From positions 34,256,353 to 34,320,352 of the forward strand of contig NC_092639.1 in NCBI RefSeq assembly GCF_039555335.1: a DNA stretch of 64,000 nucleotides. Reading direction: 5' to 3'. The DNA is from Amphiura filiformis. Taxonomy: Eukaryota; Echinodermata; Ophiuroidea; Amphilepidida; Amphiuridae. The number at the start of each line of letters is the position of its first letter. Position 1 is the first letter of the stretch. Below the pieces are notes generated by a model. That model saw only the letters and a program-made list of their open reading frames with translations. It was not told the DNA's origin and did not search any database. Both the position numbers and the translations under genes were made by a program. Below, piece by piece: positions 9,441 to 56,139 of this stretch.

Positions 9441-9893
9441 GTGGGTGTAAGTAGTGTCACAAAAATGTAGCGGTTTTATACTTTATTTAGTTCTTCTTTA
9501 CAAGAAATAGAGGTTACCGCACACTTACACCCAAATCAAGTTTAAATACATTTAAGAAGCATTAAGAAGTTTAAAAGAAGCATTAAGTAGTTTTAAAAGC
9601 TTCCCCTGACATATTTGTAATCAAGTTTAAGAAGCATCCACTGACATGATATATTCAATATAATGTCGTCTAGTTGTACGCGTTGTTTGATATAGATAGA
9701 TTCGAATATATATATATTCTTAAAACCAAGCTACTAAACTCATATAATTTATATATGAGGTTTTGTTTGTTCTAAGAGAATAGTAAACCGTTTGAAGGAA
9801 AAATCACCTTGATCACAACTGCCTAATTTATGTACATCAGAAGCACGTTATAAATACCATTCAAGATACTTAGACCACAGATCCTGGAAAGAC

Positions 9894-10148
9894 CATCGGT
9901 TAAAGCATAAGCCGTCACTTAAGGGTCTGCGACGCTCTAAAGTCATCAACAGCCTTTTAAATACGCAATGCCGTAGCATCATGAATCGGTTCTTTAATTT
10001 GATTGAGGTTAATCCCTTGTGCCCGTAGGTGTTGCTTAAGCTAATCTTTTATAGGCATGTCCACCATACAGGTGTTTCTAATCTTCTGGTTGAACCAACA
10101 ACTGCCCTGACGGTGGGCAGATAAGGTTTTTGAGTGAGGCTCGGCTTA
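9894..10148 (-). pseudogene. Decayed duplicate of the U-box exon
   Basis: The minus strand aligns with the U-box exon at 13606-13887 over almost its whole length, for example the segments encoding the helix around GCAACACCTACGG and GATGCTACG, and the end including the stop region. Several indels and in-frame stops (for instance a TAA after a 'CATGCCTA' stretch) destroy the reading frame. The similarity continues into the 3' flank (9790-9893 versus 13500-13605) and part of the upstream intron (10200-10300 versus 14650-14790), so this is a segmental DNA duplication and not a retrocopy. Confidence 0.75.
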
Positions 10149-13605: not shown

Positions 13606-13887
13606 TCATCGGTTAAACCACCAAGCCGTCACTTTGGTTTGCGACGCCCTAAAGTCATCAGCAGCCTTACGTATTGACGTAGCATCCTGAAGCTCTCCTA
13701 TGGTAAGCGGTTCTTTCGATTGCGGGTCGGTCGCATGTGTCCGTAGGTGTTGCTCTATAGCCAATCTTTCGTAGGCATAGCCACCAGGAGTTTCTACTGG
13801 TTGGACGAAGAGCTCTTCTGTCAACGGACAGATAAGATGTTTGGGCGTGGGTCGGCTTGCATGATCAGATGCGGATCCAAGAATTTC
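13606..13887 (-). CDS. Last exon: U-box domain and stop codon
   Basis: The acceptor (pyrimidine-rich tract, then TTCAG) ends just before 13887. The exon is 94 codons including the stop at 13606-13608 and starts in phase 0. The U-box core starts at residue 488 with HLICPLTEELF, then PVETPGGYAYERLAIEQHL, a DPQSKEPLT segment and a final helix. This matches the U-box pattern C-P-(I/L)-T-x-E-(L/I)-(F/M)-x-x-P-V followed by a G-x-(T/A)-Y-(E/D)-R helix and an S-P-(M/L)-T-like loop. U-boxes are RING folds held by salt bridges instead of zinc and dock E2 enzymes. Here the E2 is upstream in the same polypeptide, separated by only about 30 residues. The chain ends about ten residues after the domain, so the U-box is C-terminal as in CHIP and UBE4. 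Confidence 0.88.
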   Translation of the reverse strand, partial: EILGSASDHASRPTPKHLICPLTEELFVQPVETPGGYAYERLAIEQHLRTHATDPQSKEPLTIGELQDATSIRKAADDFRASQTKVTAWWFNR

Positions 13888-16800
13888 CTGAATAGTAAAA
13901 AGAATTGAAAGAGAATCACACAGAAAAAGTAAAATGACTAATGGGCAGGAAAAAGAAAGTGATTGAATGAAGTGTTGTAACCGTATGATAATACAATTTC
14001 ACAATTCATTATAAAAAGCACGAACTCCTCATTTACCCACTTTTTGTATATGTTGAAAGTGAAAGTTTCGAAATACAAAGTAACCAAATGCATTGAATGT
14101 CAAAGACTGTACATAATCAGTGGAAAGGATATCATGCCAAGTGTACCAAAATGAGAAAATCAATACTGAAAATATGTTATACATGACCAGGGGTCCATTT
14201 CACTCAACTTTACGATGCTTCGTAAGTCTCGAAATCGTTCGTAACTACTAGTAATGACGAGTCATAAGTTCCATTTCAATAAACTTACTTACGAACGGTA
14301 TCCTACAAATAGGGATTTACTACAGGGACCCTTCGTAAAGTTACATCTAGTATTGGGTATTCGTAACTTTATGAACGGTTACTGGAGTTACAAAGGTTTA
14401 GTGAAATGGACCCCACCTAGCAGCAACAAGTCAGACAGTAATTTAAACCCGGGAATTCAAACAAATCTCTACGAGTTGAGGTTGGTTATCGATTGCAAAC
14501 TTTAAGTTAAAAAGAGTCAACTTGCATATTGTGACAGACAAATGCGACATGCAAATCATCTCAAGATCTTTCAAACATAATAGCTACGTATGCATTTGGC
14601 TAAGTTTGCTTGCGATTGTTTACCATGTTTACGGTAAACCTCAGGGAAATCTTCGCTCTTCATATTGTCACTTAACCAAAACATAATGTCCAAAGTAAAT
14701 CTTCAGATTAGTCCTAAACCCTGTAAGGCCATATACATGTAATCCATGGGATGTTCGCAAATCTAGAGTGATAAGTAAAATCGTCCAATGCAAAGTTAAT
14801 GATGTTTGTGAATTGGATGTTACCATGGTTACAGCAACAGGTGATCCGCAACAGGTGATGTCTAAATTGAAGACACATCGTCAAAGCTTGTTGACCTTCC
14901 TTGACAACATGTAAGTCTGACATATAGATTTGGGTTTGACATTTTGGTTCGTTCTCACCAAACTCATTTAAATTTCAAAATGGTCCATACGTACACCAGC
15001 TGAATTCCAGGTGGCATGTGGGTGTTTTGGGAAAAAAATCGCCCACTAGTGAGACGAACAAAATTCGTCCCACAAAAGTATCCTACAAGTCGCCACTGAT
15101 ACCGTGTTCAACGATGTAAGGTACCCGGATGTACACAAACTCCACACGCAAAAGTATAGGCGAAAATGACAGGTTGCAAGGAAAATTGTTATTGCAAAAT
15201 AGTGGCATTTATTGCAAAGGGTAAAATAATTTGACCCGAAACATAAACTCTTTATTTGGGTTTTCCATTACGGAAAAAAAAATAACGACGGAAAAGCTAG
15301 ATATAGCTGATTTAAAAACTTATATTTAATTATTTCCGTGCTAAATGGGCGTGGCAATTGGCCATATTGATGACGAAATGGGATTCTTACGGGCATTAGG
15401 GTCAGAACTGTGTAGCTGCCGATGATGTTATTTGATAATTTTTGCACGTGATGATAGGGAACGTAGGGGTTGTCATTTTCTTCGGAAGGAATGGGTCATG
15501 AATTTATTTATTTGGGAGTAAAGAGAAATATTTCCCCTCCCCCTGTAGTGCCGCCACTGAATATAACCATGACCCTAATTTTAACTCGAATTTTAACGTA
15601 AATTGACGAAACTATTATAACTTTAGCCCTTTTCGGAATAATGACCCTCTCGAATTAATAGGCTAGATGTCCCCGCCCGACCCCTCAACCCTAACTTACT
15701 CATTCGCTCGCTCACATATTAAAATGGACAAAAAACAAATTCAAAAATGTGTTTTTAGCACCTTTTTGTGTCTCTGCATGCTAAATCGGTAATATGTACA
15801 CCCTTTGATGTACAACTTAGAGTATAAACACGTAGATGACTGCACATGATCTGATCATCCCGGCTGGAAGATATTGAGGAAGATGTATACTATAAAAAAT
15901 TAGTTATGTTTGTACCCGGGTGTAAATCAATTCGGCATCACAGGAACAATGCTTTACGTAATCTATTGTTTATCCTTCGATATCCATGATTTATCCTTGC
16001 AAATTAGCATCGAACCTCCAGCCAATGTTCCTTGCCAGTGCTAGCCACGAAACAAGGTCACAACTGTAGCCACTCCCTCAATGGTCGCCATTTCAGTGAT
16101 TGACAGTGATGTGATGCAAATATGGCGCTGGCCATCTGGTCACGTGCGCATTTATAAAAGCGCATTTATATATATAACCGAAGTCTACTGTTTATGTTGA
16201 TAACCCGATCCGCTAAAACAACAAGAAACGTCACAGTCTGTCAGGTCTGTATCAAAATGATTGTTACCTCTGCACTTTCTATGGACAAGACGGACACATC
16301 AAAATATAACATAAGACCCACCTTTAGTTGTTATAAGGTGTTATAAAACTACAAATTCTGGTCATTTCAATGCTACATTTTGAAGAAGCATGCTTTTCAA
16401 TAAACATCCAAACTCAACTGATGGGTATCAATCATTTGATACAACTTATACAAGGAGTCAAGGACCCTTCAAGCAATCGACTATCTACAACTTATGTAAC
16501 GCCGACATTTAATAAGGTACCATGAAGTATACATTAGACAGTTGTGTAACAGACCTCTCGCGGTTGACTTCAATTAAACAATAAAAAAACAATTTAAATC
16601 AGCTATAGAATAAAACGAGCAAAATGTTTTAGAATGAATGCTTGCGCGTACCAAATTCGTGCAAAGTCAAGTTAATTCAATCGGTATGGCTTTCGACTCG
16701 CATGGTGCTTTGTGTGTAATCAATGTAATTCGTAAATATGTTAACTTTCGCAGAATGCGGGGCAGAATGCTCCTGTTAAAAGTTAAGTACCTTGACAATA

Positions 16801-19800
16801 CCCCCCTTCCCAATATCCTAGTCAAGGATCATGACGAATCAAATACTAAATTGTCCTAGTTTACGCTAGCTTAAGGGGGTACTACACCCCTGGCCAATTT
16901 TGTGCATATTTTTGCATTTTTCTCAAAAATTATAGCGCATTGGTGACAGATAAGATATGTATATTATAGGGGCAAATACTACAACTACTGCACTGAAAAT
17001 TCAGCAACTCAAGGCAAGTAGTTATTGGTTTATCGATCAAATATTGGTTTTCCCTCATTTTTGACTGTAACTCCACAACTGTTGTCTGTACTGAAATAAA
17101 ATTTCCAGTGCAGTAGTTGTAGTCCTTGCCCCTATAATATACATATCTTACTTGTCACCAATGCGCTATACTGAAAAATGCAAAAATAGGCACACAATTG
17201 GGCAAGGGTGTAGTACCCCCTTAATACACTTCCACAACTCAGGACGCTGATTCTGGCTGCGCAGATTCATTGATTGCGGTGTGACTAAATCATTCGCCTC
17301 TAACAGATCACAAGCTCATTTAATGTATGAATGTAATGTTCTCCAGATAATTAAAAACAAACCTAAATATGATTACCTGTATGCATTCCGTAAGCGGTTT
17401 TGCAGCATGTTTCCTTGTCATTTTCCGAGCCTTGGTATTGTATTCTGTTGGATCTGTATGGTATTCCTCGGCAACGACCCTGCATGCATAAACCAGAACC
17501 AAAAATGTGTTGTCGTGCAATAAATATATTTTTCGTGACCTCACGTGAAGCCCCAGAATGCTACACGTTCCACGCTCTCAAAGTACAAGTCAGAAGTATG
17601 TCCTTCGTGAAGTGCCCTCATTCATAAACAACAAAGTAGCTAGAGTGTCTCGAAACTACCAACTTGCGACTTTATGCCCATATCATGGTACCAGGTCACA
17701 TATTCACATTACGCTTCAGGTCCATTTCAGGTTTTCAGTTATTCTCCTTATAACATCTTTAGTTCCCAACGGAACTCTTTCACTGTCCCAGCAATGACCA
17801 CTTTACCAAATTGTCACACACACTGATAGCCAGACTAGAGTCAAGTGACTCTCTAAGTGGACTAAACAAGCACTGACTCTCAAAAGGAGTCACCTTGACT
17901 CTACTTGTGGATTCAATTGACTCTACATGCAGAGTCGTCGACGGAGTCAATAAATTTATGACTCTTGAAGAGAGTCAGACTCTGCAATAGTTTACCTGTT
18001 GACATCATGGAATGTATATTCTCCCATACCTAAGGGATGATGTTCAGCCTAATTTTTTTATCCTGTCGTCTGACGATCGCCTATATGTGACCGTACAGCA
18101 CGAATGAGCCGTAAATGTCCTCAATTGTATTCTGAGTTACAGTGTAAAATGGGCATGAAGGTCGTATTCATAGGTACCTCAATTTGGTGCTACGTGTACC
18201 TCATTTAATGAGATACACGTAGCACCAAATTGAAATACCTATGAATATGACCTTCATGCCCATTTTACACTGTAACTCAGAATACAATTGAGGACATTTA
18301 CGGCTCATTCGTGCTGTACGGTCACATATGGCGTGAAACTCAAAGTAAAGTCTCATATTCCGGTAGGTATATACTTTGAATTTTTATGTTGATGTACATC
18401 TATGTGTATCATTATTTTGTGCTATTTCCAAACTGTCGGAGTGAACCTGTAATGGAGTCAGGGTGACTTTATAAATGGAGTCTGGATTACTCTAGAAGCA
18501 GAGTCCAGCCACTACGCGACTCTATGTCTAAAATGACTCCATATTGGGAGTCAAATGACTCCTGTGTAGAGTCATCAACGGTGACTCTTCCGCGGAGTCA
18601 AGAAAATTATGACTCTTCAGGGGAGTCAGATGACTCCCAATATGGAGTCATTAGACATAGAGTCGCAGAGTGGTTGGACTCTGCTTTTTGAGGCACCCTG
18701 ACTCCAATTTGGCTTTCAGTGTAGCCATGAGGAATATATAACACAGATTGGGATTTAGTTACATCAGGTGACATGCGTGTATGAAATACCTTGCAAAAAT
18801 CCCTGATACATTGTTACGACAAAAAGACACTTCGGTTTCTGCATGAATGAACACAAAAGGGCAAAAGGGAGAAAGTTAACCAACTTTACACACGATCAAA
18901 AATAAAGGAATCGCTCACCGAAATAAACATAATCAGCCATTACTAAACGCGTGTCAAGGGCTAACCGTTCAAAAGACTGGGACACTTCATCAATCCTTGA
19001 AAGGGAAGAGATCGAGACGAGGGGACATTCTTTTTCACATTTTCGATCCTCTCCTCCAAAACATCAACGCTTTGAGAAACCCGGAAGGTTTCTGGCGAAA
19101 CTATCAGCATAAGTTTTTCCTTTGATCTTGACAAAGAATTTTAAATAGCTGATCAGATGATCTTATTCAGCTACGTCCAGCTTTCCAGAAAGTGACCTTC
19201 GCCTGAGGCAATTGGTTTTCCAATGTTGACAGTTGGTAACAGGTGTCATGATAGGCAATCAGTTACATCAGATGATCGTGTTCTGTCTAGCTTTCCAGAA
19301 AGTGCCCTTCGCCTGAGGCAATTGGGTGTCAATTGTTGGGTCACAGTGGAGTGAAATGCATGAGGTATTCAACCAAACAGGACAGTGAAATAGGACAGAC
19401 TGGTATGTAAAAGAGTCTGTACAGCGAATTGAGTCGATGGGCACAAATCGGTATACGGATTGATGCATGCCGCAAGTTATCTCCAATAAAATCATAAAAC
19501 TTCAGTTTGAGGGGAAATACTTTTGCAGAAAGAAGTCAAGAATTTACATGTCATGAGAAATATTCCTAGGAGCTCAAAATTCTAATTATATTTTAAGTAG
19601 ATAGGAAAGCAACGGGCAAATAACTTTCTATTGATTTCAAGAAGGCGAGCTTCGTTTAAGATTGGGAGGCATGTAATCAATACTTCCAGAGTGTAATTAA
19701 AATTCCATTTCAAGGAGAGTATATCTTACATCGCGATATACAGGGTGTCCCAGAAAAAATTACCGAGTGAATAAAATTGAACGTAAGTCGAGAAATAGAC

Positions 19801-22800
19801 ATCAGAATCAAAATTCAAAATGTAGCGCATAGCCTATTTTGTTGTGCATCACATACGAACATTTTATTTGATTCGGTTGACTGGTTCCGGAGAAATGAAC
19901 GATTGCATAATGCGTGCATCAATGCAGTTCATTCCAAGTTTGATCTACAGGCGCTTTTTTCATACTCACTCACCGCTTCCTAAAGCTTGTGTATCTCATT
20001 AAATTTAGTCTACATTACCTATTTAAATCCGACGGTTTTATGTCATTCATGCTTTCACTGAAGATGAATAACAGTTTTTCCGAGAAAACTTTGATTTCTG
20101 CAATTGGAAGCTCTCGAACTTTAATTCTTTAGCTTGTGCAAATATACTTTACAAAGGACATTTGAGCCAAGAATGACAATGATCAAGTGCTTACAGCTTT
20201 ACGTGTGATATTTGATACCACGCAACATTAATGTTGAAGTTTTTAACTTTGCATTACAATTTCTTGGAAATATTCCGAAAACATTAATGTGTGTGTGAAA
20301 TTTTTAAACCAGCTGGAATTCTTTATGTAGTAATTCTTTATGCAACATTTATATCAACATTAACGAAAAAAGATACTTACAAATACCGAGCATCATCTTA
20401 CATGCAAGCTTTCATTTTCAATATCGTGCAGGTTTTCAAATTTGAACAAAACCCAATTAAATGTTTTGCAAGAAACAGGTTGTTTAAAAAGAACGAAAAC
20501 GATTTCATAGAACAAAATATGAAGCCCATTGACAGTTTAACCACTAGTGCGCATTGTGTTGAATGATCTTTCTTGCAAACTTGGAATGAAGTGATTTAAC
20601 ACATGCTCATATCTTCGCGATTAGTCAACTGATTCCAGTAAAATTGGCGTATAAGATGCAGAATAAGATGGATTACACGCCGATGTTTAGATTTTTGGAT
20701 TCTGATGTCTATTTTTCGACTTACGTTCAAATTTATTTGCCCGGTAATTTTTTCTGGGACACCCTGTACAGTGTACAGTTAGGATGAAAATTTTACAATG
20801 GAAATAAACAGAAAAACATTAATCGAAGAAGGAAAATAAACACATAAAACCGAAAATTAACTTCAAAAGGCTAAAAGGCATTGCAAATCTCAACTTTATA
20901 CATTTTCAGTGAGTTTTTCTGCTAAAGCTATTTGTCTAAAAACGTCAATGGCGCTTATGTTATATGCCTTTCTCTTCTACATTTTGTCTTTTTTTCATAT
21001 AAAGGGAAAATAAATTTAACAAAATAAAAAGGTATTTCTCAATCTACGGTCCTACCTACTCCTTAATACACGTGACGTAATTTGTTCCCAGGTACATTTT
21101 CTGGCTCTGTTGTTGCGTCTTTTGAACTCATCATCATCATGATGTGAGACGCGGCTTTTTTCATCAACTCATTAGTCGCATTAAATGCATTTCACTGCAT
21201 AAGCTGCTATACGTTGGCCATACGATCCACTTAGAACTAGACCTCGTAGTTTCATTTTGATAGGAATCCAGGACTGTCGTCTGATATCCATATTGTTTAC
21301 TCTAAAGTACAACCAGGGAATAACGAATGACGCAAAAGGGAATTCGGGTGCCACTATACATTGAAATCTTGTTTGGTTTTAACCCGTGTTGTAATGTACA
21401 AGTTTTAATAATTCAGATAAAACTGTCACGTGTTGTGTGAAGGAAATAAGTTAATGATGTTTATTCGGGCTATATCAATAATTTTCAGTGGCTCCTTAAA
21501 AACAAAAGACAGTGCACTACATCATGTATATGTGCAACCCCCACTTTAATTTCGGGAAAAACCAGCCATTAGCCAATTGACAGAGCCTGTTATTACACCT
21601 CATACATATTCATGAGCAAATCATAGCACTTTATTGGTCAATTGCAAACGACACGACCTATTTCACCTTGCGATAGTTTTCAATACCTACATGACAAGCT
21701 CATCCCTGTAGCCTAAGTTCGGTGTAATGAATAACATACACTCTCAGGTACTACGTGCTTTATATCTGGGAATTAAGGCAACTATTTTTCCCACTGTACT
21801 GGCTACGAGCCTATCACCCCCCAAACCCGGTGATAGCCCGTAGCTAGTACCGAGGGGGAAATAGTTGCCCTATTTCCCCGATATAAACAGTGTGTATATA
21901 GTATTTGTATTATGTATATTTATCTTCTTAATGTTACCTTTATAAGCAGGCCAGTTCACGAATGCTCATATATTTTGATGTAGAACTATACACTTAAGAT
22001 CTATACCTACGTGTCGAGTGGGTCATCCGGTTCTGGAGTCATGAGAAGCCCATAAATGGCGCTCAGTATCTTGTACATCGTGATGTCTGAACTGTAATCA
22101 CGGTCAAATATGCTGTGACAAATCCGACCAACGCTATTGATATTGCAATGATGAATCTGTGTATTTGGTAAAGGATCACATATATATAGTTCACAAATAT
22201 ACACACCGCACAAAAAGAAAGTTCACCTTTCTCTCAAGGTCATAATTTTTGATACAATTGATTAATAACTACCAAAAATTTATAAATGTGCACGTGAAGA
22301 AATTTTGTAAGTTACAGATTGATGCATCAGTTGCGATAAAACAACTCGAAATCTTCTCGAAGTACGAAAACTGAAACCTTTCAAATTCAAGCAGAGGACT
22401 AGACAATAGGCGCTATATTGTAGGAAGAGGGTTAGAGTTCAGAGGGGAAACGTCCAAGGGTTAGAGTTCATAGGGGAAACGTCAAAGGTTTAAATATGGT
22501 TAGGTCACTCAGGCAGTCTCTCTAATTACCTGTTGTAATACCAGTAGGTAAAAATATTAATATGTTGAATTTATGCTCTATTTCTAGTTATTAAATATAA
22601 CCAGGCTACGAACTACCGGGAACAAACTATTCTGTAGTTAATATAGATCAAATATGGTGGTGACTTTGAGATACCTGCGCATAACGTAAAACGTCTGTCT
22701 GATTTAGCATGGGTGGGAGTTTAAAACGCATGGTCGAAGGTGCTCTAAGACTAGCCAGAGACTACCCGATGGAAACGCTTCAAACACATACCATGCGTTA

Positions 22801-25800
22801 TAAATATAAAATGGCGGATATGTGTATCTTAGGTCGAACATTGTTTGTGACCATTGACTCTACATTACAATATGCACTTTCACCCTCCTGATTGTAACGC
22901 CAAAATAACGGGATGCTTAAAGTTAGTGAGCTTTAGTGTTAGTGTTAGTGTTAGGGTTCAGGTTTAGGGTCTAGGTAGGGTTAGGGTAGTGTTAGGGTTA
23001 GGGTGGCAATCCTGTGATTTCGGAGCTGCGAAATCCCAGGATTTCGGCAAAAAATTTCTGCCGAAATGATTTCGGCAGGCTTATACCGAAATCCCGTTAT
23101 TTCGGCCCAACATGATAATTATGTTGGTGTACAATATGGTGTCACAGGTGTGTTGTGGCTACTTTAACAATGCCACAGATCTGCAGATCAACGTTTAGCT
23201 GAACACAATACCATGCCAGGGAATAATGCAGTTTGGCAAGGTATAGTGTATATTATTCTAATGCAATCTCTAAATTGCAATCGATTAAAATCACAGACAT
23301 TATTGAATCACATTGTGTGAATAATATTTCAGCGTTTCTCAGTTCATACGGGAGATCTTAATTGGGACGATGGTTTTGAGTGCATAAATTTATAGCTAAG
23401 GGGTTTCCCTGGAGTACTCTTGTCGAGAGCTTGGAATAACTTAGGAAATCATTAAGATATGCTCAGAACAGCATCCTTCCGTAGCGATAATTTAATTGGG
23501 CATATTACAGGTGAAACGGAGCATATAAAAATATTTGGTCAGGACAATTTTTTGCTTAATGATAAAAGTTGAAGGTACGTCAGCAACACTTAAGGGGGGT
23601 TTTCACACATCCTCCAACCCAGCAATTGAGAATGTCACTCAAATCTGGGAGAAATCAGAAATCATAAGCAGAAATGAAAAACACTAATACAGAACTGAAA
23701 ACTTAGAAAGGCCCATTGTATTAGTCATTTCCCCCAGCCTTAATTACCTGGGATCATGTAGGCCTACCCATTAGCGCCAATCCGGCTTGAAAGATGGGGA
23801 TGTGTGGGTGTGGGGGGGGGTAACCAGCCAAAATTGTTAAAAGTGAGTGAAAAGAACAAAAAATTTGTCATTTTGCCGAAAGGTGGGGAACACGTACCCC
23901 TACACCCACCCACCCGGGATTGACGCCCATGGGCATACCTCCCAAACCTAACATGTGACGATACCAATAGAACTATTATGAATCTAAATTGGGGAATTAG
24001 TCCATGGGAAAGGAAAGCGAGGTACCAGATTTGGAGTCCCAAGGGATGAGGGAATGAACGGGAACGGGAATGACTATCACGAAATGAACCAGATGAAACA
24101 GAAATTAAGTATAACAATTTATTATGAATTCACATCATCAGACAAACTGATCAAAATAATATAATGTATGTATTAATATAAAGTCTTACCAGAGTTACAT
24201 CGCATCATAATAATTATAATTGAATATGATTCACGTGCAAGACATGATGACAATATAATCGTCATCATGTTGACCAATCTATCTAATCATCATGAGCCAC
24301 CCTGAGCACGTCTACACCGGTCGCAGGGTTAACAAGGAGTGAAGTCTTCATTAACGCACAAACAAAACATCGCTTCAGCCAGTGCAATTGATGCACGGAT
24401 ATAAAACGTTCACTTGATGAATGGTTATCATGGCTTACTGCACTAAGATCAATATCAATTATCGAATGAATTATCGTCACAACAGAACAATTAGCGACAC
24501 AGCATAATGTCGCTAATGAAAATAGTGCACCCTTGCATTCGCCTTGAGTGCTAATCATAACGCACCTCTAATTTTGTAAAGCGCACACTTGTTGGAGAGA
24601 CAATTTTGCAATTTTTCAATTTTTTTTTCTTTTTACTCTGTCAGTGAGCTGTAGGCTTCCAAGACTAAAATATCATAGCAAAGGATACTGGTGTGATGAA
24701 ACGGACGACCGGTGGAACTGTTGGATAATTATTTGGAAAATCAGCGAAAAGTGCAAATACGCCATTCTCGTAGGGTGTTCCAGTTGGACCAGTCATGAAG
24801 ATACGCCAGAAACAGACGCTGAAATAAAGAAAATAACGAAAGGTGTGTGAATTTGCCATGGAATAGAATGTCCTTTGGAGGAGCAAGTGTCAACATGAAG
24901 CCATGGTGCTAAAATACCGAGAACCACGACTTCTCATTTTGAACTATATACAAAAATATCCATATCATAAAGAATGCATTTGTTGGCTGCTACATGCGTC
25001 TCTTTTTACATAATCATGATAATAGCTCTGAGAATAAATACCAAACTCATCTCAACTGGAAGTCACGTTAAAATGTTACTTAAAGATGTTTTTGCTAAAA
25101 ACCAAAACCCAAAATAACCCCCCCCCGTTTAAACGTTTTAAAAACATTCTGTGTTTACTGGGTGGACAATTATTTTTTTCAGATTTTTTCATGGAAATAA
25201 TCTGCCAACTAATTTACTTGGGAACAAAAGTATACTATGAGTATATTGTGTGTTAATTACTGTGTTAATTCTTACTTGTTTTGTGATGGAAATATCTTAA
25301 ATGCTGGATGAGGTTTCCGGTGTATCTTGGACATCTCTTGCATAACACGAAACACTATTGGCCGAGTAGCCATTGCAGATTGACCTTTGTTGGCGGCATA
25401 TTTGAGAGATCTGCAACATGCATGAATTTACACAGTCAAAATCAGGATATTCATCATGTTCATTTGATATTCCCATCTGTCTTGCATATAAATGCAAAAA
25501 AGTATTTTTTTGCCCATAATGCGGCCCATACACGTTCAAGCTTATTGATCAATATCAAAGACCCTGAATACAAGAATGGATACATAAATTAGACCCCGAT
25601 AGAGGGCAGGGCCTAAAGAATGCGGAAATTATGGGGTAAAGAGTATTTTAAAAAGAGTAAAAAGTAGAGACAGTCCACCATTAAGGTTACTCGTGCTTTC
25701 TTGCCCTGTGAGGTCCTTATATCGGGGCCGCACTTGGAGTGTTTAGTCATCGTATGAGAGTCGCCGACCTCGGGCCTGGCGGGCCTGCGGCCTTCATGTT

Positions 25801-28800
25801 TTATATTGATACCGAACCATGATGTGTTGATACTATATCAACAAAAACATCAAGGTTACAGGGCCGGCAGGCCCGAGCCCCACGACTCCCATACGACGAC
25901 TAAACACTCCAAGTGCGACCCCAATATAAGGGCCCCGCTGAGCAAAAAAGCAAAATTAACCGTAATGTAACATTGATCAACAATAACCTCAATTTAACAT
26001 TCACCCATTGCCACATTTGTGCCGTATATTCAGAGCGATATAGTCTGAATATCGAATGTGATTCAGTGCGATATAGACTGAATAATAGAGAGACCAGGTT
26101 GAATAATGATATATACGGTAGTAGCGTGAACTCACAAATCAGTGTTTGTAACTGGCCCTCTGACATCAGATGGGAGTCTATGCTCTGGATGATCATCATA
26201 TGGCCTGGTCCTCGACAACCTTTCCAAATCCGACTGAGCAGAAATAAGAAATATATCTCCAGAATATTAGAACAGTCATAGGCTTGCCTTTAAAAAGTAA
26301 ATAAAATTCCCTGTAAAATTCGTTTGATCACACAATAGCAAATACAGCCATTACATATATACACGGGCTGATCACAGTTCAGATCATGCTACGATTGTGC
26401 ATATTCAAAAAGCACCGGGAAGAATGGACAGTGCAGTCATAGGTTAACATCCAGACTAACTGCGCGATACATTATAGAGGTTTCATGGTTTGATCATAAT
26501 ACTTACCGAACTTCTGACCGGTTGACTAGATCTTTCTTCCCGAACTGTTGATGACAACATCGTCTCCAACTCAAATAATTTGCTTGCTTCTACTATGTTG
26601 ATAGGGCGAAAACAATACCCACCTGTGTGTTTAATTGAAAAAAAACCCGCATTGAATATTTATAGTAGTCATTATGGCTCGAGGGACACCAAAATACAAA
26701 CGTAAAATACCTGGCAACTAGTTGCCATGTAAGTCTATCATAAAAACGACGATTTTACAGGTATTTCATCGTATAATTAGCATATCTACGGTATATTGCC
26801 ATAAATTTACGATAGAATGACCTTAATCATGTATAAAATACGGTAGAAGGCACGTATATTTTACGGTAAAATACCTAGAAACTGGTTTGCCAACATTCTA
26901 CCGTTAAAATTACAGTTGTTGCCGTAATGTACACTGCACATTATACGAAATAGTATTTACACACAATCTGTCAGGATAATACGGCTATTTACTATTTAAA
27001 AATATTGAAGATGCAGCACTTTACACCCCCCCCCCCAACATACCCCACACACAAATAAATAAACCAATACAGTCTAACGGTACTAACATGCCTATTTTCA
27101 GTTAAATAGTCATTCCAATTTTACGGTAAATAACCGTCAAGTTTACGGGAAAGTACCGTAAGGTTCATGCAAGCTGCCTTAAACATAATCAACATACCAG
27201 AAGCATGGCAAAGGCCTTTCAGTGTCTGGTCGTTTTCGGTTCCAATATGAATTGCATCGAGAACTATTTTTTCCAACTGAAAGAAAGTACATTTCACACA
27301 AGAAAATCAGTCAAGTAGAAACTATTTTGCAATTCCATCAATATGCTGTCTTCAGGTTAAATACATGTAATGATAGCCATAATATACACTAAGCCAAAAA
27401 AAGAAACTTATAATCACAAGGTCATATCTTAAAATCCTGTCCATCAAAATGAACCAAAATTTACACACAGGATTACTTCAATACTCTACTCTAAACACTG
27501 TCAGTTGTCCAACTGACACAGCAGCAAAATGTACTGACATGGAATAGCATCCTGACCACATTCATAGTCCAATAATTGGCACCCAGCACAAGAAATCTGT
27601 GAGAATTATCTCAAATGTTGCTCAAAATGGTTGCCTAAATTTGACCTCAACTTACTTCCAATTTCTTTGCGATCGTCACAGGGTTTGATGTTGATTTGGT
27701 GTCAACTCCATCAGAGAGGCAAATGATTCGTCTAAAAGCACAAAAAAGTTACTTTAAAATATTACCGATAACCAAGGTTGTATGTAAGTGTAAAAGTCAA
27801 ATTTCGGCCTTTTTTTAAAAGTAATTCAGTCAGGAGTGCACGTTACAAGTTGGACATAATTTATATATTTCTACCTTTTGCAGTGAGGAAATCGTGCCTT
27901 GATTTCTTCAAACTGATCTATGGCTGTACTTATTCCATCGTAGATGGCGGTCATGCCGAATGCTCTCATTTTTTCTAGCTTTGCCTGCAATTTATTAAAA
28001 CAATTTTTGGAAATTACACTTATTATGACAATCTCAGCATTTTGAAAACATTAACATAAAGGCCATAAGATTATGTATTCAAATAGTATTGGGTCAAAAC
28101 TCATACGGTATTTAAACTACCACAAGAGGAAAAACCATATCAGTTTGTAAGCGCTCTTTAGCAAGTCATAGTTCATTGAATTTACAACCGTATGACAAAA
28201 CAGGCGAAAATAGTAACTTTTTGCACAAGATTTGAATTTAAAGAGAATTGGCCATTGCTCATTCTAGTGACGCTAGTTTATGGACAATATAAGTGTGCCT
28301 TTTCATTTAATGACATAAAATTTGACAAATATTGTAAGGAATACTTGAGGTTTTTACTTTTAAAACCTATATTTTGGTCAAAAAATGTGCTTGGAAATTA
28401 GTTTTTAACAGATTTACCACATTCGCCTTGCTATAACATATCTGTTATCTGTTGATCTAGTGACGAAAAGTGTTTTTAAGGGGAAGTGTTAGCTTTCGTT
28501 TGATATAAAAAAAGAATTCTGATTGGATGAAGGGAACACTTGAGGTTTCGACAAAAACCAATTATAGAGGCTCATTTTCCAGTTATTTTCCACAGTTCAT
28601 CCGATGCTATGCACTCAACCGTGTGGTGTAATCAAAGACTGTGGTGGAGACAATTCACTGCTTGCTGTTCTCTGCTTGGAAGCTCTTGGACGAAAATGTT
28701 TACTCAGGTGTATCGAGGTGGAAACTGTGCGTAGTTGTTTCATAAGAGAATCGTTTTTGTATAGAAACCTTTCCATATGATCAAAGAAGTAGAGAACAAA

Positions 28801-31800
28801 ATTAAACATTTGCTCGTCTTTAAATAGGACGTCTACTTTACCTTAAACTCAACAAAGAATTCGGTTAATCTGCCGGTAACCGTAGGTGTTGAATTAAATG
28901 TTACCAATCCTACAACATGCTGGAAATTGTAAGCCATACTCCTATCAGCAAATGTACAAAACATCTGCTGAACCACTTCAAGTCTCGATTGATCCGACCT
29001 GAAATTGTACGATGTAAAATTTCGTGAGGGATTTAAAAGTAGTTATAATAAACACTGTGACAAAACATAAGTTCCTAGAAATAATTAGTTTATTTCCCCG
29101 TTTGTAATGTATTTCATCATTTCTGAAGGCAACATTTTCCAGGGAATTTTGGAGTCTCGAAGTTTCGAAAACTTCTTGTCTAATGCTAGAAACACATGAA
29201 CTTCTAAAGAAACACCAGTAGTGCCTATGGCAGATCGATTGACAAGGTTTCGAAACTTTGAGATTCAAAAAACTGTGAGTACATAATCTTGGATATTGTT
29301 TTGAGACTTTATGTACATAATTGTCATAATTATTGTCGTTAATAACATTTCTGACATTAGTATAATATTCCCTTTAACTTATAATGATATAATGTAATAT
29401 GATACCGTATTACTGTACAATTTATTATGCATGAAGACAACGTACATTTAAAAACAAATACAAAACTGAAGACTTACCCGTCATCTGAATCGTCCCTGTA
29501 AAGAAAACAGTTAAAAATATAAAGGAATTCAGGTTAATGTCCAAAGGATTAGGCATACGCATTATAATACGTAACATGTACAATATTCTTTGATGTTAAA
29601 TGACATAGTTTTACGGCAAATCAAGAAATTCGAGGTGTATACCCAGCACAGAAAGCAACGAAACACATTAGAGAATGAATTTGGAAAACCTTCTGATAAT
29701 TACAAACACTCGCTGAGCAGCAAGACCTTCCCTCTAAGCTTTTAATCCGATAAGCTGATTATCTATTTGTTTTCATGAATTGGAAGACATTCTTTGATGT
29801 ATTACTGAGCTCAATCATCTGAAATTACTGGAGCGTGAGCCACCCAGGCTGGTGGTTCAGCAGAGTATTTTATTAACAGAAGGTTTTCTCCAAATTCGTT
29901 TCCTAATGAATGGGCTATTCCAGAAATTAAAGGCACCTCTCCCCCTAAAAAAGTCATTATTTTCACAACCCTAAAGAAGACATGGGAATTCCCAAGAAAA
30001 ATACACCTTTTTATTTTAGGCTTGGGAATTCCCAAAAACTTTGGCAAAAATTTGCCTATCTTCTTTAGGGACATTTTTTATTTATTTTTTTTTGATAAAA
30101 TTTTGGTCTGGGAATTCCCAAAAATTTATGGTACAAACTTACATGTCTTCTTCTAGGGGGTGCCATTAATTTTTGGAATAGCCCAATACATTGGGAAAGA
30201 AGACACAAATTGATGGGGAAAAAAGAAGACCAAAATACATGGGAAAAAGAAAGTAAAGCGAGCAAGAAAGAGAGAGGAAAAGGAAAGAAAGAGAAATTTA
30301 ATGTAGCCTTAATACCTGGCAAAGGAATTTGAATCCATCGATCCGCTGACGTCAACAGCTATCTAAATTATTACGACATGAGTAACAAAATAATAATTTC
30401 ATTATATTTTATTTTATAACGCAATGTAAAACCCGAACGATTTGCACTTTCCATGATAATGGCCAAGTTTTGTCACCCGCACTACATTTATATAGTTAAA
30501 AGGCTGCATTACATTAAAAGTTTCCATTTACGAACGTCAATTTTTTAGGTAGAGCTTTTATGGTGTTGAAATTAATCCACACCTGTCTGATCTTTATATT
30601 TTACACATGCAGTTGGGAAGACAAAATATGTTAATTTATATTCACCACGATAGCTTCTGTTGGAGTCCTAGTAAATAGACAGTCGGTACCCGTCACCACA
30701 TCAGTTGTGCTAAAATACTTCTTTGTTCTAGAGATGGAAAGAAAAATAAAGAAAGACCAAAGCTGGGTGAGTATTTCCAAATTTTTCCCCTGCGCACCTT
30801 TTAATAGATTCCAAATACCTTCGATGTACACTGGTCACATCATCACTCGCACCCCACCCACCTCTCTGAGCCACCACAGTCTACACACCCCTACAAACAC
30901 CCCACCCCATCATACATACACGAAATACACATAATTGTTCGATGTTAAGGTTAAGATTTTGCAATACAAGGGGCCCAGAGACAAACAGGAAATTTCTTGA
31001 TTGGTCAAAAATCCATCGCTCATTGCTCAGCAACTGAATGTAAATTTGGCTTTACCATGTTAACATTTAGATATATATTTTCTTTCTTTCACCGTATATA
31101 AATAATGACATTTCATGTGGATAAACAAATTGTTCTGTATTATTTTAAAGATAGTTCTGCAATATAATGTCTGCACAAAAAGTAACTCAGCTGTTATAAA
31201 TACGCATATAGATTCAGAACTAATAAATGTTTTAACAATATTTCAACATAGAGAGAAGCATGATTTATTTACACGCATTTTGATACCACATTCGTCAAAT
31301 GTCGTTCAATATTAACAACACAGTAGTGCTTTTACAGAAAAATACCCGAATTTAAAAGTTGCCGTTTACAGCGATCAATGGTTATAATGCCAGCACTGTA
31401 AACACGTAAAGCCCGCCATTATCTTCACGCTTACTTCAAATCAATACAAATAACTGCAACTTTTAAATTGGGGTATTTTTCTTTCAAAACACTGCTGTAT
31501 TGTCAATATTGAACAAAATTGGACAAATTGGGTATCAAAATGCGCGTAAATAAATCATGCTTCTTTTTATGTTAAAATATTGTGAAAACAATTATTAGTT
31601 CTGAATCTATAGGCGTATTTATAACAGCTGAGTTAGTTTTTGTGCAGACTTTAGTTAATTAATGTTCACCTTTCAGCGAGGGTATCCGCATCTTCACTTT
31701 TGGTAGCCTTGGCAACTGGGTCGTAAAGTTGAAGAGGATAGGCATCCGCAGCAGATTTACTCAGCTCAGAGAAGACAACGGTAGGCCTGTTATAGAAGAA

Positions 31801-32336
31801 AACTCGAGAATGTGCGTAAAACATGGCTAATTCTCTCTAACCATTTTTGTGGATATCAGCCTAGGCGTATTCGTTTCTGTGATTCATGCAGTCGCGTTGT
31901 ACACGTGTGATGGGCAAGATACCCTTTTTCGGTGTCATTATTTGTATTCTTAAACATTGCACTATAGGACAACATAAAATAAATTATGACTGGACAGGGT
32001 GTCCGAACAACTGGCTACGATGTCTTTGTCATGAATAGAAATTCACCATCTTTCACTTACCAAATTCATTTAGAGTTACTAGCGGTACGGGAGTGGACCC
32101 GCCTTTTAGCTGCAGTGGCGGTTTTATCTTCAGTCTGTCAAATTTGCTCTGAATTGCTCGTAGATCGTTCAAGCTCTTTCCTGTAATGTCCTTCATCCTG
32201 CTCATAGTTTCAAAAGAAGCACGTAAAATATCATCATCATTACTACATCATCACCATCATTACTACATCATCACCATCATTATCATCTTAAGCATTATCA
32301 TCATCATCGTCGTCATCGTTACACCACCACAACCAC

Positions 32337-32382
<46 letters not shown>

Positions 32383-35300
32383 GTAAGCATCATCATCATC
32401 ATCATCATCGTAAGCATCATCATCATCGTCATCACTATTATTATCATCGTCACCATCATCAACACTGACTATCATCATCATCATCGTCGTCATCGTGTTA
32501 CGAAAGGCACACTCTGCTCAGAATTTTGAAGGAAACTTGCTGCCCGTTTGATTATTTGCTGTAGTTGTTTTCAATACTTTTAAAAGTTTGGAGGAGTTTC
32601 ATATCCCATCATTTCGGTGATGTGATACATTGCATATTATTATAAGGCACTTGTAACGTATTAACTAAATGACCATTCTGTGCAATGAGACCTTACCGCG
32701 AAGACAGCGTGACATTACTTGGAGGGTCCCATACATGGCATGATTCGGTCGTTAGTGGGTAGCACAATAGTAGTTGCTGCATGTCTAAGTCGGCAGAGCA
32801 TCGGAGGGCTTCGTCATCGGATGTTCCTGATGTTTCAAAGGTAAAAGGTCAAGTGCAATATGAATAATTGTACGAGGTATTGTTATAAAAAAAATTATTC
32901 TGAAGAAACGAATGTCATTGTGCACTGATGTATTTTTATTTTGTGTTTGTTTATTTTTGCCTTTCAACCCACGGGAGGAGTGGGTTCCTAGTGTGCGGTA
33001 GATTTTCATTTTCAGGCTATTATACAGTATCAGTAAAAAAAATTCTTTAGGGAACACACCAAAACATCGATGAAATTCTACGAACGAAACTGCACTACAA
33101 GATTCTTATTTGGGCTGCCTGCACAGGTACACCGTCGACAAGACACTTGCCTGGTACTGTGCAGTACCAGAGGAGTACCAGAGTAGTAGCACTAGGTCCG
33201 ATTATGTACAGTAGCAGCATCGGTACTATGTAGGTACTTTGTTATTTTTTTGACCCATTTCCGGTTTCGTTACAGACGAGGAGGTAGGAGTCAACTATGA
33301 AACGGATCTTAGTTACGTTTATAGCACGATGGCATGTAAAACTGCGTCATTCTGAAGAAAAGTTGAACAATGATGGCGCTATTTATCTAAGAGGAAGACA
33401 CTTGTAAAATGGTATTAGAACATCAGCAAACAGACTAACAAATGACAAGTGAATTTAAAAAAAACCTTTTTATCATGAAATGTTAGGTATAACTCATATT
33501 AATTGGCCAATTGAAATTTAAAATATATGTTAATAGCGCCCTCAATTTTCACACAAATGTACAGTTTATAGAATTAAATTTACCATAAAAAAAGCAGAAA
33601 AAGATGCATAATTTGATATAGAAACGAAAAACTATGTTAAAAATTGCTGAAAAATATATGCACATTATATACAATTTATTAGTGTGATAGCTGTTGATAT
33701 GATTCAGGTCTAGAATTGAACATTATAATAATGTTTTGTTAAAGAATTTAATAAATGATCACGTCAAACAGCCGTGATAAGATTTGATCTTTTGGTTTGT
33801 TTCCTTATAATATTTTTATCACTCAAAACACTGATTTTTTTAGTATGAGCGGTGCTTGATGCTTGATGCTTGCTTGCATGGTTTATAAACCAGTTAACGC
33901 CCCCTGCAACGTGTTTACCGCTATTTAACTATTGAACATTGCATTTGATCGCGGGGATGGCGTACTCTAATCGACTTGTATCATGTGTATTGTCAGGACT
34001 CTTCGTCGGGGGGAGTATCGGCCATCCCGTAGCACTGAAAATTGCGAAAAACCTGCATCATTTCTGTTGGATGATGTACAAATGAATCGTACAATAAATT
34101 AAATAAAAGCTAGATAACATTTCTTTCCATGGACATTCTTTAATGAAAGTCATTACTCTTATAACCTGACGTTTACGCGACAAAAACCTTATATGTTTGT
34201 TCAAGGCTTCGACGTTTTTTCGCGGCGGTGCCGCGTCGCAGTTGGTTGTTATTGCACCAGTTTCTCGCAAAGGCGAACTATCATACATACGTACTATTAT
34301 ATTCTCTCGGTTGGGGTTGTTCCATCTATTGCATACACTTACCCATTTCTCACATCTGTCAAAGGGGATACCCTCGTGAAACCCCTGTTGTTCAGTGTAA
34401 GCCTACAGGGCTTGGCCGTTTCAGCCAATTTTCTCCGCATCGAAAATACCAATTTCCTTTTGTAATAATTAGGAAATCGAGCTTTTTGAATTGTTTCACC
34501 AACATGACCAAGAGGTATTTATTTCATGACATGTTTTGTGATTTCCCTGATTGAGAGCATCAGGGACAACGTGTTAGCTTAAAAAAAAGCGGCCATCTCA
34601 CTTAACCATGCCAGGAAATGTTTCCAGACATGTGTTATCAACTGTCAACATTTGACAACCAATTACCTGAGGCGAAAGGCACTTTCTGGAAAGCTGGACT
34701 TAACAAGACCCTCTGATATAAGCCATGTAACTGATTCCCATCTGGGTTATTGTCCCTGGCTGTATTTACCATGCTCACCCGGCAAACTGGTAACTTTGTA
34801 ATGTCAAGGACAGGGAACAAATTCCTTTACGAACTTATGCCCATGTCATACTCCTTAACGCAAGGAGTGTAGCTTTTTCTGTTATGTAACTTCCATCGCT
34901 TACATGAAAGGTGATTTTCTATATCTGATAGATAGGTCGCGCTAGCATGCTCAAACGTCAAATCGTTAGCAGTTGCAGATGATGGTGGATGCGATATCGC
35001 GATTTTTGACGTCGCCATTGGATTAACACATAATCATGAAATCTTCACAAACAATTCTAAATTTGTTATGTGGTGTCAAAGCAAAATTATCTTACTCTAA
35101 AACCGTTGGGGTTCTGCAAAGTACCCCACTGCAAGTATGTTAATTGTCCATTTATAATCGCTAACCGTGTATTGTGAATGGGGCTGTCAGCCCTGTATCT
35201 TCGCCAGCCTCGTACGTCCGTGTTGCGTGTCCTATGCCGCCTGAGCAGTTGACTCTGTCGTAACGGCGCCAACTACGACTGAACCAATGTTGCTCAGTGG

Positions 35301-35807: not shown

Positions 35808-36144
35808 CTAAAAGTATGACCTACCATGTTAGCTAAAACGACAATTTTAGTCAAAAATTGTCTTATTTGGTCGATAATTAACAAAATAAGGCCAATATTA
35901 ACAACTAAAAACAAAACAAAAAAAACGATTCATGGAAAGAAATGTATAGATTACAGAAAACACACAAACGGCCAATTTTGGATTTTTACTTTTTCTATAG
36001 TGTATTAATTTGACAAAATTTGAGATTTTCTCCAAAATGTGTGTTTTTACCTTTATTGATTAATTTCCATTCCAAAAAAACCTATAAACATCTTGCATGA
36101 ATAATACAGAATACTTTTAATTACTGCATTTCTGAGAGTGCACA

Positions 36145-36775
36145 CACTGTTAGGACGGTTGGGTTAATTTTTACCCAACCACTGGGTGCTACATGAACAA
36201 AGTTTTTCTGGGTTAACGTGTTACCCAACCCCGGTTAGGTAAACATGGTAAAGGCTACACAAAATTATGGTATATGTTTAAAAAAATTTGTTGGGTAATA
36301 TAATTTTACCAAATGGTATTGGGTACTTAATTTACTACATTATTGGGTACTTTATTATGTTTATGTCCATTTATTGGGTAATATATTGCCTTACTCAATG
36401 GTATTGTGTAAATTCCTAATGGTATTGGGCAATTATTTTACCACATTATTGGTCCATTTGTTGGGTAATATATTGCCTTTACCCAATGATATTGGGCAAT
36501 TTCCTGATGGTATTGGGCATTTATTTTATTACATTTTAGGCTAAATTTTATCTTTTTATCTTTACCCAATTCAACATTTAACACTTTTACATGGCGTCAT
36601 TTAGATATATATATGCCAACAAAAAAGTAGGAATATACATTCTGTGGTGTTACACTGTTTACCCAACTAATGGGTAAACTAAGAGACAAAATGTTTACCC
36701 AACCATTTATCCATGTTGGGCAAAGTTTACACAACCAAATTTTACCCAAATGGTTTACCCTGTGTTCTAACAGTG
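36145..36775. mobile_element. Foldback built from TGGGTAA-type repeats
   Basis: Ends CACTGTTAGGAC and inverse GTTCTAACAGTG; the interior has about 20 TTGGGTAA/TTACCCAA motifs, the middle ones as direct repeats (TATTGGGTA). Confidence 0.75.
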
Positions 36776-37599
36776 CAGACACGAAGCTCGTGAATAATGA
36801 CTGAACTTATGTGTACTAATTTATTGTACTTGTACTAATTTATTGTGCTAATCACAATAGTCATTAAATCGACTGCAACAAAAACAAAATGCATAACACA
36901 ACAATGAATTTATTGGAAACATTATGGAATATCCAGCTCTTGTGCAGTCTGCAGCAGATAATGGTTCCAATCAGTTATAAACAATGCAAATACGTATGGT
37001 ATTACCAATTTAAAGTACTAGACAATGCCAAATTATATGGGCTAATCAATTTATTTATTTTTACAATATGGTAATAGAGTGTCTCGAAAAAAATTCCCTT
37101 GGGAAATATTAGTTTGGAAAAAAGACCCTCCATATTTTTAAAGAAACCCTATTATAATACTGTCTGTGTTTATCATAAACATCCATGGGCTATAGTTAGA
37201 AACCATACACTCCCTATGGAAGGAATGGCATAAATCTTCCACACAGGGAGTGTGGATTTCTAATAGGGTTACATGATTGGGTGATTCCAATTGAAGTGTA
37301 CACCCCTTGTGTGGGAGATTAAGGTCATGTCTTTCATACGGAATAGCCCGATAAGCCTGGATGAAAACCACATTGTAACCATATGTCATTGTCCGCATCG
37401 CATTCGATTGGTTTGACCAGGAGAAATTTATATATGAACATACAATAGACTGGTGTGACACGACGTGTAAAGATACGCTGGGGGAGGGGGGTCAAATAAG
37501 CTTCCGACCCCACCACCAAAACGAAGCCCCAACCACTCCCCCATTTGTCCTTGTTTGTTGTTTTTGTTGGTTTTGAAACTTTTGACCACCAATTGATCA

Positions 37600-37830
37600 A
37601 AAATTAAAAAAGTCCGAAAATAAGGTTCTCTAGTCCGAACGTTCGCTGTTACGCTACACCATAACCCTAAACCTACCCCATCGTAAACCTAACTCTAACC
37701 TTAACCTAAACTTTTGGACTACCGAACCCTTTTTATGTTTCGGACTGGACTAAAGAAACTATTTTCGGACAAGCGAACCTTATTTTTGGACTTGCAAACC
37801 TTGGGCCTTGCGAACTTAAGCGTTCAGCCA
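37600..37830. repeat. CGGAC-rich repeat with CCCTAA-like array
   Basis: AGTCCGAA/TTCGGACT segments flank a degenerate CCCTAAACC/CCTAACTC array (37662-37712). Confidence 0.6.
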
Positions 37831-37989
37831 CTTTAATCACGGCTAGGAACCAATAAAATTGCAGGACGTGTCTCATGTATAATGGCTCATAGGCTTTAAG
37901 TCTGAAAAGAGCCGTTCACTGAAGACTGTCCCTTGTCAACATAGAACAAGCAGACGTCGCCTAAGTTAAAAGCCATTAAACCTTTTTAA

Positions 37990-38420
37990 TTAAAAATTGA
38001 TATTTTTGAAATTTAACAGTCCTCGAAGTCAATTGTATAAATCTAATGATATGTATTAAAGTGTATGTAGCTGGGTTGAAAAGTCATCCTTCATTTGAAA
38101 ATTTTGACATTTCGTATTGAAGATGTAAATTACCCCCCCACAAAAACACCAAAACACCAACAAAATGTAGGCCTGTTTGGGGGAAATGTATATCTTCGAT
38201 ATGAAAGGTCATAATTTTCAATTGGTCGGCTTTTCATCCCAGCTATATACACTACAAGTACATATCATCATTTATGTAGTTTACTTTGAGGACTGTTAAA
38301 TATCAAAAATATTAGAAATATCAATAAAATATAACGCGAAATTCAAAAATCTAAATTATTTGATATCAGAAGGACATTCCTCGTATTCAGAATGCAATTT
38401 GACATATATGATGTGCTCTC
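37990..38420. mobile_element. Foldback element related to 45507-46170
   Basis: Shares GTGTATGTAGCTGGG, AATATGAAAGGTCA-like and GAGGACTGTTA-like arm sequences in inverted pairs around a C-rich centre. Confidence 0.65.
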
Positions 38421-38429
38421 AGGTCCCCC

Positions 38430-39815: not shown

Positions 39816-39816
39816 C

Positions 39817-40020
39817 AAATACGCGGATTTAGGGTTTCTCTACCTGAAGTCAATCTGTGCCGAAATTCCTTCCCACAATGCAATATGGGTATTGCATAAC
39901 AAAGAATATTGATTAATCTCCGAACTGTATCTATTGTTATGCAAAACACTTATTGTATTGTGGGAAAGAATTTCGGTACAAATTGACTTCCGGTAGAGAA
40001 ACCGTAAATCCGCGTATTGC
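39817..40020. mobile_element. Foldback MITE with GGTTTCTCTACC ends
   Basis: ATACGCGGATTTA and GGTTTCTCTACC at both ends in inverse, inner CCGAAATTC blocks. A second member is at 55252-55440. Confidence 0.8.
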
Positions 40021-40318
40021 CATGCCAACTTGGTAATATGTATGTCGTAACCCAATCTCGTACATTATAGCACACAGTTTTGGTTTGTGGTTTTGAAATA
40101 TTGCAATTAAACATTGGTTCTGTCAAATATAAGACGCAAAAACCCAAATCTAGTACAAACAATCATCATAAAGATATAGCAAACTTTCCATGGTAGAGAT
40201 TGGACCCAAGACAAATTACACCTAAATGAAGTGTAAATTCAGGGTTAAACAGCTATGGCGGTAAAAGTACATTGGGACTCTCAACTCTGTTATACATTTC
40301 TTTATAGACGTGGTTTAA

Positions 40319-40674
40319 GGGTATACGATGTATTGTTGGTCGAAGCAGCAAAAAAATGTTGTTCACAACATCTTGCGAATGGTAGTGAGCTTTAGCAAAA
40401 ATTGCATTGCTCAATTCATAGCGAGCGTGTAGTAGAATTCAAATATCACATATATACTTTTGTAGGTCCTGTGGTTCTTGAGTTATGTTGTAAAGAGGGC
40501 TGAAACAACAACACTTCTGTGAAACGTACATAATTCATTAACAACAATAAATTAAGCAAGTTTTCAAAGTATATGATTTGTAGAATGAACCTTTGCAAAA
40601 CACCAAAGTGTTATTTTTCAATAATATATTGATTCAGATAATGGCTGCTTCGACCAACAATACCTCGTATAACC
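40319..40674. mobile_element. TTAA-flanked element with 35-bp terminal repeats
   Basis: Left GGGTATACGATGTATTGTTG and right inverse GGTTATACGAGGTATTGTTG, both continuing GTCGAAGCAGC; TTAA at 40315-40318 and 40675-40678. Confidence 0.7.
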
Positions 40675-45128: not shown

Positions 45129-45135
45129 AACGGCA

Positions 45136-56135: not shown

Positions 56136-56139
56136 TACT

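Follow-up and report, generated by a model that had tools for sequence, protein, structure and literature searches.

Introduction

Natural fusions of a ubiquitin-conjugating enzyme (E2) with a ubiquitin ligase (E3) are, to our knowledge, few. The U-box proteins LubX, CHIP/STUB1 and UBE4B work with separate E2s. The plant RGLG/WAV3 ligases carry a von Willebrand factor A (vWA) domain and a RING in one chain, and the vWA proteins Rpn10 and those of TFIIH are subunits of the proteasome and of TFIIH that have neither an E2 nor a U-box. The protein BIRC6 is defined by its BIR domain. In this brittle star locus, described here, vWA, ubiquitin-conjugating (UBC) and U-box domains are encoded in one frame. 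The locus lies on the minus strand of a 64,000-nucleotide stretch of the Amphiura filiformis contig NC_092639.1 (positions 34,256,353 to 34,320,352; assembly GCF_039555335.1), which is called the window throughout. On balance, we read it as the greater part of a gene for an E2-E3 hybrid enzyme of about 1,100 residues, for which catalysis, pairing of the E2 and U-box in cis and recruiting roles are putative attributes. We assign the protein to the E2/E3-hybrid kind, of which BIRC6 and UBE2O are the recognised human members according to an excerpt of PMC13061254, and its family is held in databases under an automatic name.

The vWA-UBC-U-box half of the gene

Fifteen exons run from 31,786 down to 13,606 on the minus strand. 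All 14 introns are GT..AG and the joined frame stays open for 564 codons up to a TGA, which bears out the exon borders and phase continuity described in the original prediction. The translation is 100% identical over 100% of its 564 amino acids (aa) to P0002, a 577-aa NCBI-predicted A. filiformis protein found in a search of about 5.8 billion proteins. There is no ATG at 31,786, and the 13 extra residues of P0002 come from the adjoining upstream sequence, with an ATG at 31,824. The Pfam scan that had been proposed for this translation placed all three domains above the curated cut-offs: VWA_2 at residues 65-185 (E 2.7e-11), UQ_con at 321-457 (E 3.2e-37) and U-box at 486-554 (E 1.4e-12). These E-values rule out chance open reading frames (ORFs), and the single phase throughout rules out separate tandem genes inside 31,786..13,606. 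Both the translation and the alignments also confirm the predicted metal-ion-dependent adhesion site (MIDAS) motif DVSGS, the MIDAS residues Thr152 and Asp184, and the active-site Cys401; the three numbered residues are Thr165, Asp197 and Cys414 of P0002.

AlphaFold2 gives a confident multidomain model of P0002, with a pLDDT (predicted local distance difference test) of 87.9 and a pTM (predicted template modelling score) of 0.83. The E2 domain is closest to UBE2D-type enzymes in both sequence and fold comparison, and the U-box is closest by sequence to LubX, CHIP/STUB1 and UBE4B. The vWA domain is closest to Rpn10 by sequence and to TFIIH subunits by fold; residues of the model outside 325-476 were barely tested in the fold comparison, and the vWA fold match is a lead only.

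The upstream exons and the full-length protein

The N-terminal halves of relatives from fish and acorn worm gave collinear minus-strand matches in the window up to 62.6 kb, and these located seven more exons at 32,061..62,642 on the minus strand. They have AG..GT borders and a single open phase among themselves. The gene runs out past 62,642, as P0065, a second predicted protein on the window contig, shows, and the N-terminus lies beyond the window. All 22 exons have intact splice borders and frames over 2,547 bases, except at the join of 32,061 to 31,786. The exons are as follows, in the order of transcription.

62438..62642, minus strand, upstream exon u1: C-terminal portion of the ubiquitin-like (UBL) domain, then the beginning of the helical region; AG/GT borders, one open frame, 100% identical to P0065
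55474..55590, minus strand, upstream exon u2: helical region; matches P0065
54490..54541, minus strand, upstream exon u3: helical region, VAVVEGLYFLFRRILP
53233..53303, minus strand, upstream exon u4: helical region, VFEHSALCWAYLL
35485..35623, minus strand, upstream exon u5: first part of the degenerate U-box-like domain; matches P0065, and the family profile matches the C-terminal U-box at 95.3%
32697..32826, minus strand, upstream exon u6: second part of the degenerate U-box-like domain
32061..32197, minus strand, upstream exon u7: linker before the vWA; 100% identical to the end of P0065; frame one base off the next exon
31670..31786, minus strand, first of the fifteen exons: linker before the vWA; covered by P0002
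30646..30727, minus strand, exon: linker and start of the first vWA strand
30316..30362, minus strand, exon: vWA, MIDAS motif DVSGS
29478..29495, minus strand, microexon of 18 bases: vWA
28842..28998, minus strand, exon: vWA
27875..27984, minus strand, exon: vWA, MIDAS Thr (165 of P0002)
27656..27731, minus strand, exon: vWA, MIDAS Asp (197 of P0002)
27198..27276, minus strand, exon: vWA
26507..26622, minus strand, exon: end of the vWA
26136..26233, minus strand, exon: linker between vWA and UBC
25276..25410, minus strand, exon: linker and start of the UBC (E2) domain
24689..24818, minus strand, exon: UBC domain
22011..22156, minus strand, exon: UBC active site with the HCN motif and the catalytic Cys (codon 22120-22118)
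17377..17479, minus strand, exon: C-terminal part of the UBC
13606..13887, minus strand, last exon: C-terminal U-box and stop codon

The whole chain is found in one model in P0064, a second A. filiformis gene model of 1,127 aa that is 80% identical to P0002 and 70% to P0065. It lies on another chromosome-size contig (67.5 Mb, against 67.8 Mb for the window contig). In a tree of 36 proteins the two Amphiura copies are sisters with an ultrafast bootstrap of 100, and several deeper nodes are weak. The original claim that vWA, E2 and U-box belong to one polypeptide is supported by P0002, by the paralog model and by 44 of 86 relatives, all of which are predictions; the accompanying claim that the gene consists of fifteen exons is not supported, as the gene is about twice as long.

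The domain order, taken from P0064 together with fish and sponge chains, is SAM-like, UBL, helical region, degenerate U-box, vWA, UBC and U-box. The SAM-like match stays below the Pfam cut-off wherever it is listed (E 7e-4 in P0065). The UBL match is above the cut-off in Etheostoma (E 7e-7) and in the sponge (E 1.3e-10) and below it in P0064 (E 0.029). The profile comparisons were built on 23 and 19 segments. The family profile of the degenerate U-box matched that of the C-terminal U-box of the family with 95.3% probability (E 2.4e-8) in one pairwise comparison; against the UBL, the sole control, it gave 0.4%. A second, more N-terminal UBL is a reading by eye only; it has no Pfam match, and its profile reached 17.7% against the other UBL. 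Within the window, the exons hold the end of the UBL, the conserved helical region and the degenerate U-box, and splicing at the ordinary acceptor does not bring these into the frame of the vWA half.

Conserved residues

The alignments drew on chosen subsets of 21, 47, 48, 18 and 36 proteins, and the set of 36 lost none to the gap filter. The catalytic Cys and the Asn of the H-x-N motif are each present in 46/48 aligned relatives, and the Asp aligned with Asp117 of UBE2D in 45/48. In the vWA domain, the MIDAS Thr is found in 44/44 ungapped relatives and the second MIDAS Asp in 47/47, and the DxSxS motif is kept by most ungapped relatives at its Asp (34/37), its first Ser (34/39) and its second Ser (33/38). 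HCN replaces HPN upstream of the catalytic Cys in 31/36 relatives, and the window protein likewise has HCN. Among the first 21 sequences HCN had appeared invariant. This failed on the wider set, where HPN stands in three fungal-type proteins and neither motif in two more.

The positions of Phe62, Pro95 and Ala96 of UBE2D, which we take to be those that usually dock E3s, have drifted: Phe is found in 4/48 relatives, Pro in 10/48 and Ala in 5/48. This is the pattern to expect of an enzyme that depends on a tethered U-box of its own. In the U-box itself, the position of an Ile of CHIP, presumably an E2-contacting residue, is Leu or Ile in 33/37 ungapped relatives and in 19/19 of a U-box-only alignment; in the window protein it is Leu506.

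Distribution of the family

The combination of vWA, E2 and U-box was initially taken to be singular. It is not, since a sponge, fish and an acorn worm have it, and fungi and protists have rearrangements of it. The count of 44/86 distinct related proteins (P0002-P0087) was made by hand from precomputed Pfam lists, and breaks down into 25/62, 16/21 (P0002 recounted) and 5/6 (P0064 recounted) in three protein searches. The 62- and 6-protein searches scored only those 8,000 candidates that had the most words in common with the query, and absences, such as those of tetrapods and other echinoderms, mean little. Named members with all three domains come from ray-finned fish, the coelacanth, the acorn worm, the brittle star, the sponge Oscarella and the fungus Aureobasidium. 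The Oscarella protein keeps the vWA-UBC-U-box order and is 35% identical over 99% of P0064. In P0078 (Aureobasidium), P0083 and P0045, the vWA is interrupted by the U-box, which separates the DxSxS strand from the remainder of the domain. A UBL sits inside the vWA after the DxSxS strand in P0033 of Arcella, and P0032 appears alike by eye. Dictyostelium and Pelomyxa have vWA-UBC proteins with no U-box in the Pfam lists. A pattern scan of prokaryotic genome contigs gave 27 pattern matches, none of them a relative. The family is old, widely scattered and nearly unstudied though present in databases: exact-word matching in the open-licence PMC literature found no description of the family, whether by the vWA-UBC-U-box combination, among E2/E3 hybrids or under the R795 name that two fish members carry, and within that literature it is not a well-described family. 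The R795 name led only to the eel study cited below.

Several relatives have other domain contents. In the precomputed Pfam lists, P0035 and P0036 combine vWA and UBC with a MYND zinc finger (PF01753) in place of the U-box, and P0061 has TPR repeats fused to vWA and UBC. P0049 and P0051 have an E2 domain that lacks the His, the Asn and the catalytic Cys, and are probable pseudo-E2s with a vWA.

Giant viruses and eel expression

The top viral fold match is A0A1V0SEK3, an 'E2 ubiquitin-conjugating enzyme' of Hokovirus HKV1 (BFVD, 1,329 aa), with 33% identity over 400 columns and E 2.4e-36; the next viral match has E 5.7e-12. Hokovirus is a giant virus of the Klosneuvirinae. Because 400 columns are longer than either domain, the match presumably spans vWA and UBC, and it suggests that genes may have been exchanged between giant viruses and eukaryotes. 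R795 is not named among the best 50 viral fold matches listed. Pattern-based scans of IMG/VR with a few short patterns found no relative, and the excerpted main text of a paper on ubiquitin in giant viruses (PMC11915834) contains none of the words 'VWA', 'von Willebrand' and 'ubiquitin-conjugating'.

An excerpt of a study of silver eels carrying the swimbladder nematode lists a 'probable bifunctional e2 e3 enzyme r795' gene in its immune-defence table at 0.18-fold (p 0.008), close to CXCL10 at 0.23, CXCL11 at 0.17 and GBP5 at 0.05 (PMC5560681). The table was chosen by immune GO terms, other immune genes in it rise, and the excerpt gives no yellow-eel value for r795 (PMC5560681). The eel gene is known by its annotation name alone, and its response is only a lead as a hint at the biology of the family.

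Other features of the window

A second copy of the U-box exon sits about 3.5 kb downstream of the gene end.

9893..10147, minus strand, decayed second U-box exon copy, outside the gene: 189/269 columns identical (70%), E 3e-28; interrupted by stop codons and breaks in frame

Its stops and frame breaks indicate that an unconstrained copy decays visibly here, in contrast to the open exons of the gene. The large introns hold ORFs that resemble retroelement reverse transcriptases, as judged by eye from their translations: two of 799 and 306 aa at 41890-45176 on the minus strand, and two of 503 and 146 aa at 58126-60255 on the plus strand. The 17.6-kb intron contains a tandem direct repeat, 45858-47255 and 47268-48668, with 99.2% identity over 1,402 aligned bases. 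The tRNA scan of the window found 0 genes.

Alternative readings of the locus

Some observations weigh against a single hybrid enzyme, and the break between the two halves of the gene is one of them. NCBI models the window copy as two proteins, P0065 covering the N-terminal half and P0002 the C-terminal half, apparently because splicing to the ordinary acceptor at 31,786 puts the frame off by one base. The end of P0065 and the start of P0002 both fall in the intron of 274 bases that separates 32,061 from 31,786, whereas the predicted paralog protein P0064 reads continuously across the equivalent position. This raises the prospect that the window copy is broken or split, either into two proteins (SAM-like, UBL and degenerate U-box in one; vWA, UBC and U-box in the other) or as a recent pseudogene whose paralog does the work. 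We consider this unlikely, though by no means far-fetched. The 22 exons are otherwise intact in borders and frames, whereas the duplicate of the last exon has decayed. The intron has 17 AG sites, of which three, including 31,802, preserve the frame. Nanopore R9.4.1 reads underlie the published A. filiformis assembly, from which the window is assumed to derive; its flye version has a quality value of 31.6 and an error rate of 0.00068, as given in an excerpt of PMC11310086, and at that rate the 2,547 exonic bases should contain about 1.7 base errors, counting every kind. The offset could stem from an assembly error, from a real frameshift or from use of a different acceptor. A more radical separation, in which vWA, UBC and U-box are joined only through gene prediction and the real mRNAs are separate, is scarcely credible. 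Judging by their labels, the joined animal models are indeed products of genome annotation, but the joined order recurs in the sponge, the acorn worm, many fish and both A. filiformis copies, and one open phase crosses 14 introns at the window locus.

The catalytic side of the hybrid reading also meets contrary points. The position of Asp87 of UBE2D is Asp in 1/48 relatives and mostly Ser or Asn, and this change, together with HCN for HPN, means that the transfer chemistry could differ. The drifted E3-docking positions are equally compatible with a dead interface. HCN for HPN and the loss of the Asp87 equivalent would suit a UBC that serves as a pseudo-E2 scaffold, like a ubiquitin E2 variant, with the U-box recruiting an outside E2, and so would the two aligned relatives P0049 and P0051 that lack the Cys. 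We hold such a scaffold to be improbable, since the catalytic Cys and the motif Asn are retained in nearly all aligned relatives, and P0049 and P0051 have lost the His and Asn along with the Cys, which indicates that these residues are kept or lost together. In the second loop of the U-box, the basic position, which we take to be the 'linchpin', is Lys or Arg in 4/19 relatives, and the loop Pro is likewise present in 4/19. The window protein has both, and their absence from most relatives weakens the case for canonical U-box activation across the family. In addition, vWA and UBC occur together in 50/62 relatives of the 564-aa query, and for 25 of those 50, partial models among them, the Pfam lists give no U-box, which shows that vWA and UBC can be combined with no E3 attached.

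Proposed mechanism and significance

With these points taken into account, the hybrid enzyme is the reading that we carry forward, and the conserved catalytic residues make a self-contained ubiquitin-transfer enzyme plausible. In such an enzyme, the cysteine of the UBC, Cys414 in P0002, would receive ubiquitin from E1. The U-box tethered at the C-terminus would bind the UBC of its own chain, or that of an adjacent chain in an oligomer formed through the SAM-like domain, and would drive the E2~ubiquitin conjugate into its reactive state with no need for an outside E3. The vWA, through its MIDAS, and the SAM-like, UBL and degenerate U-box modules may select and hold a client or link the enzyme to a larger machine.

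A wider proposal, which as a whole we regard as doubtful, is that the family represents an ancient eukaryotic one-protein ubiquitin writer. Its E2 would lack the shared E3 surface and be driven only by its own U-box, and a vWA of the Rpn10/TFIIH type with a working MIDAS would dock, together with the N-terminal UBL, on the proteasome or another complex, perhaps in an inducible defence. It would have persisted in animals from sponges through to fish and been traded with giant viruses, and its parts would have been reshuffled in fungi and protists, in which the U-box lies within the vWA. The N-terminal modules raise the testable question of what the enzyme recruits.

Comparison with known systems

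The window protein shares the UBC fold and the catalytic Cys with UBE2D-type E2s, and differs from them in having HCN in place of HPN and changed E3-docking positions. Its U-box resembles those of LubX, CHIP/STUB1 and UBE4B by sequence, and here the E2 is in the same chain. Like BIRC6 and UBE2O, it has E2 and E3 modules in one polypeptide; here the E3 part is a U-box and a vWA is added. Unlike BIRC6, it gives no match to a BIR domain when the 564-aa half, P0064 and P0065 are scanned with Pfam. Unlike the RGLG/WAV3 ligases, it has no RING model among the Pfam families listed up to E 1 for the 564-aa chain, in which the U-box is matched.

Two fish proteins, P0022 (Scophthalmus) and P0086 (Merluccius), are annotated as 'putative bifunctional E2/E3 enzyme R795(-like)'. 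They have the same vWA-UBC-U-box order and the HCN motif. P0022 is 39% identical to the 564-aa query and P0086 is 33% identical to P0064, with a SAM-like match below the cut-off in P0086. The R795 name of both is an automatic label, and it is through this label alone that homology to R795 of mimivirus is implied. As the family name rests on an automatic label, a correct description would improve many annotations. If real, the conserved E2-U-box fusion would be a ready-made single-chain system for E2-E3 activation, and a natural counterpart of the engineered UbcH5-RING fusions in the PDB.

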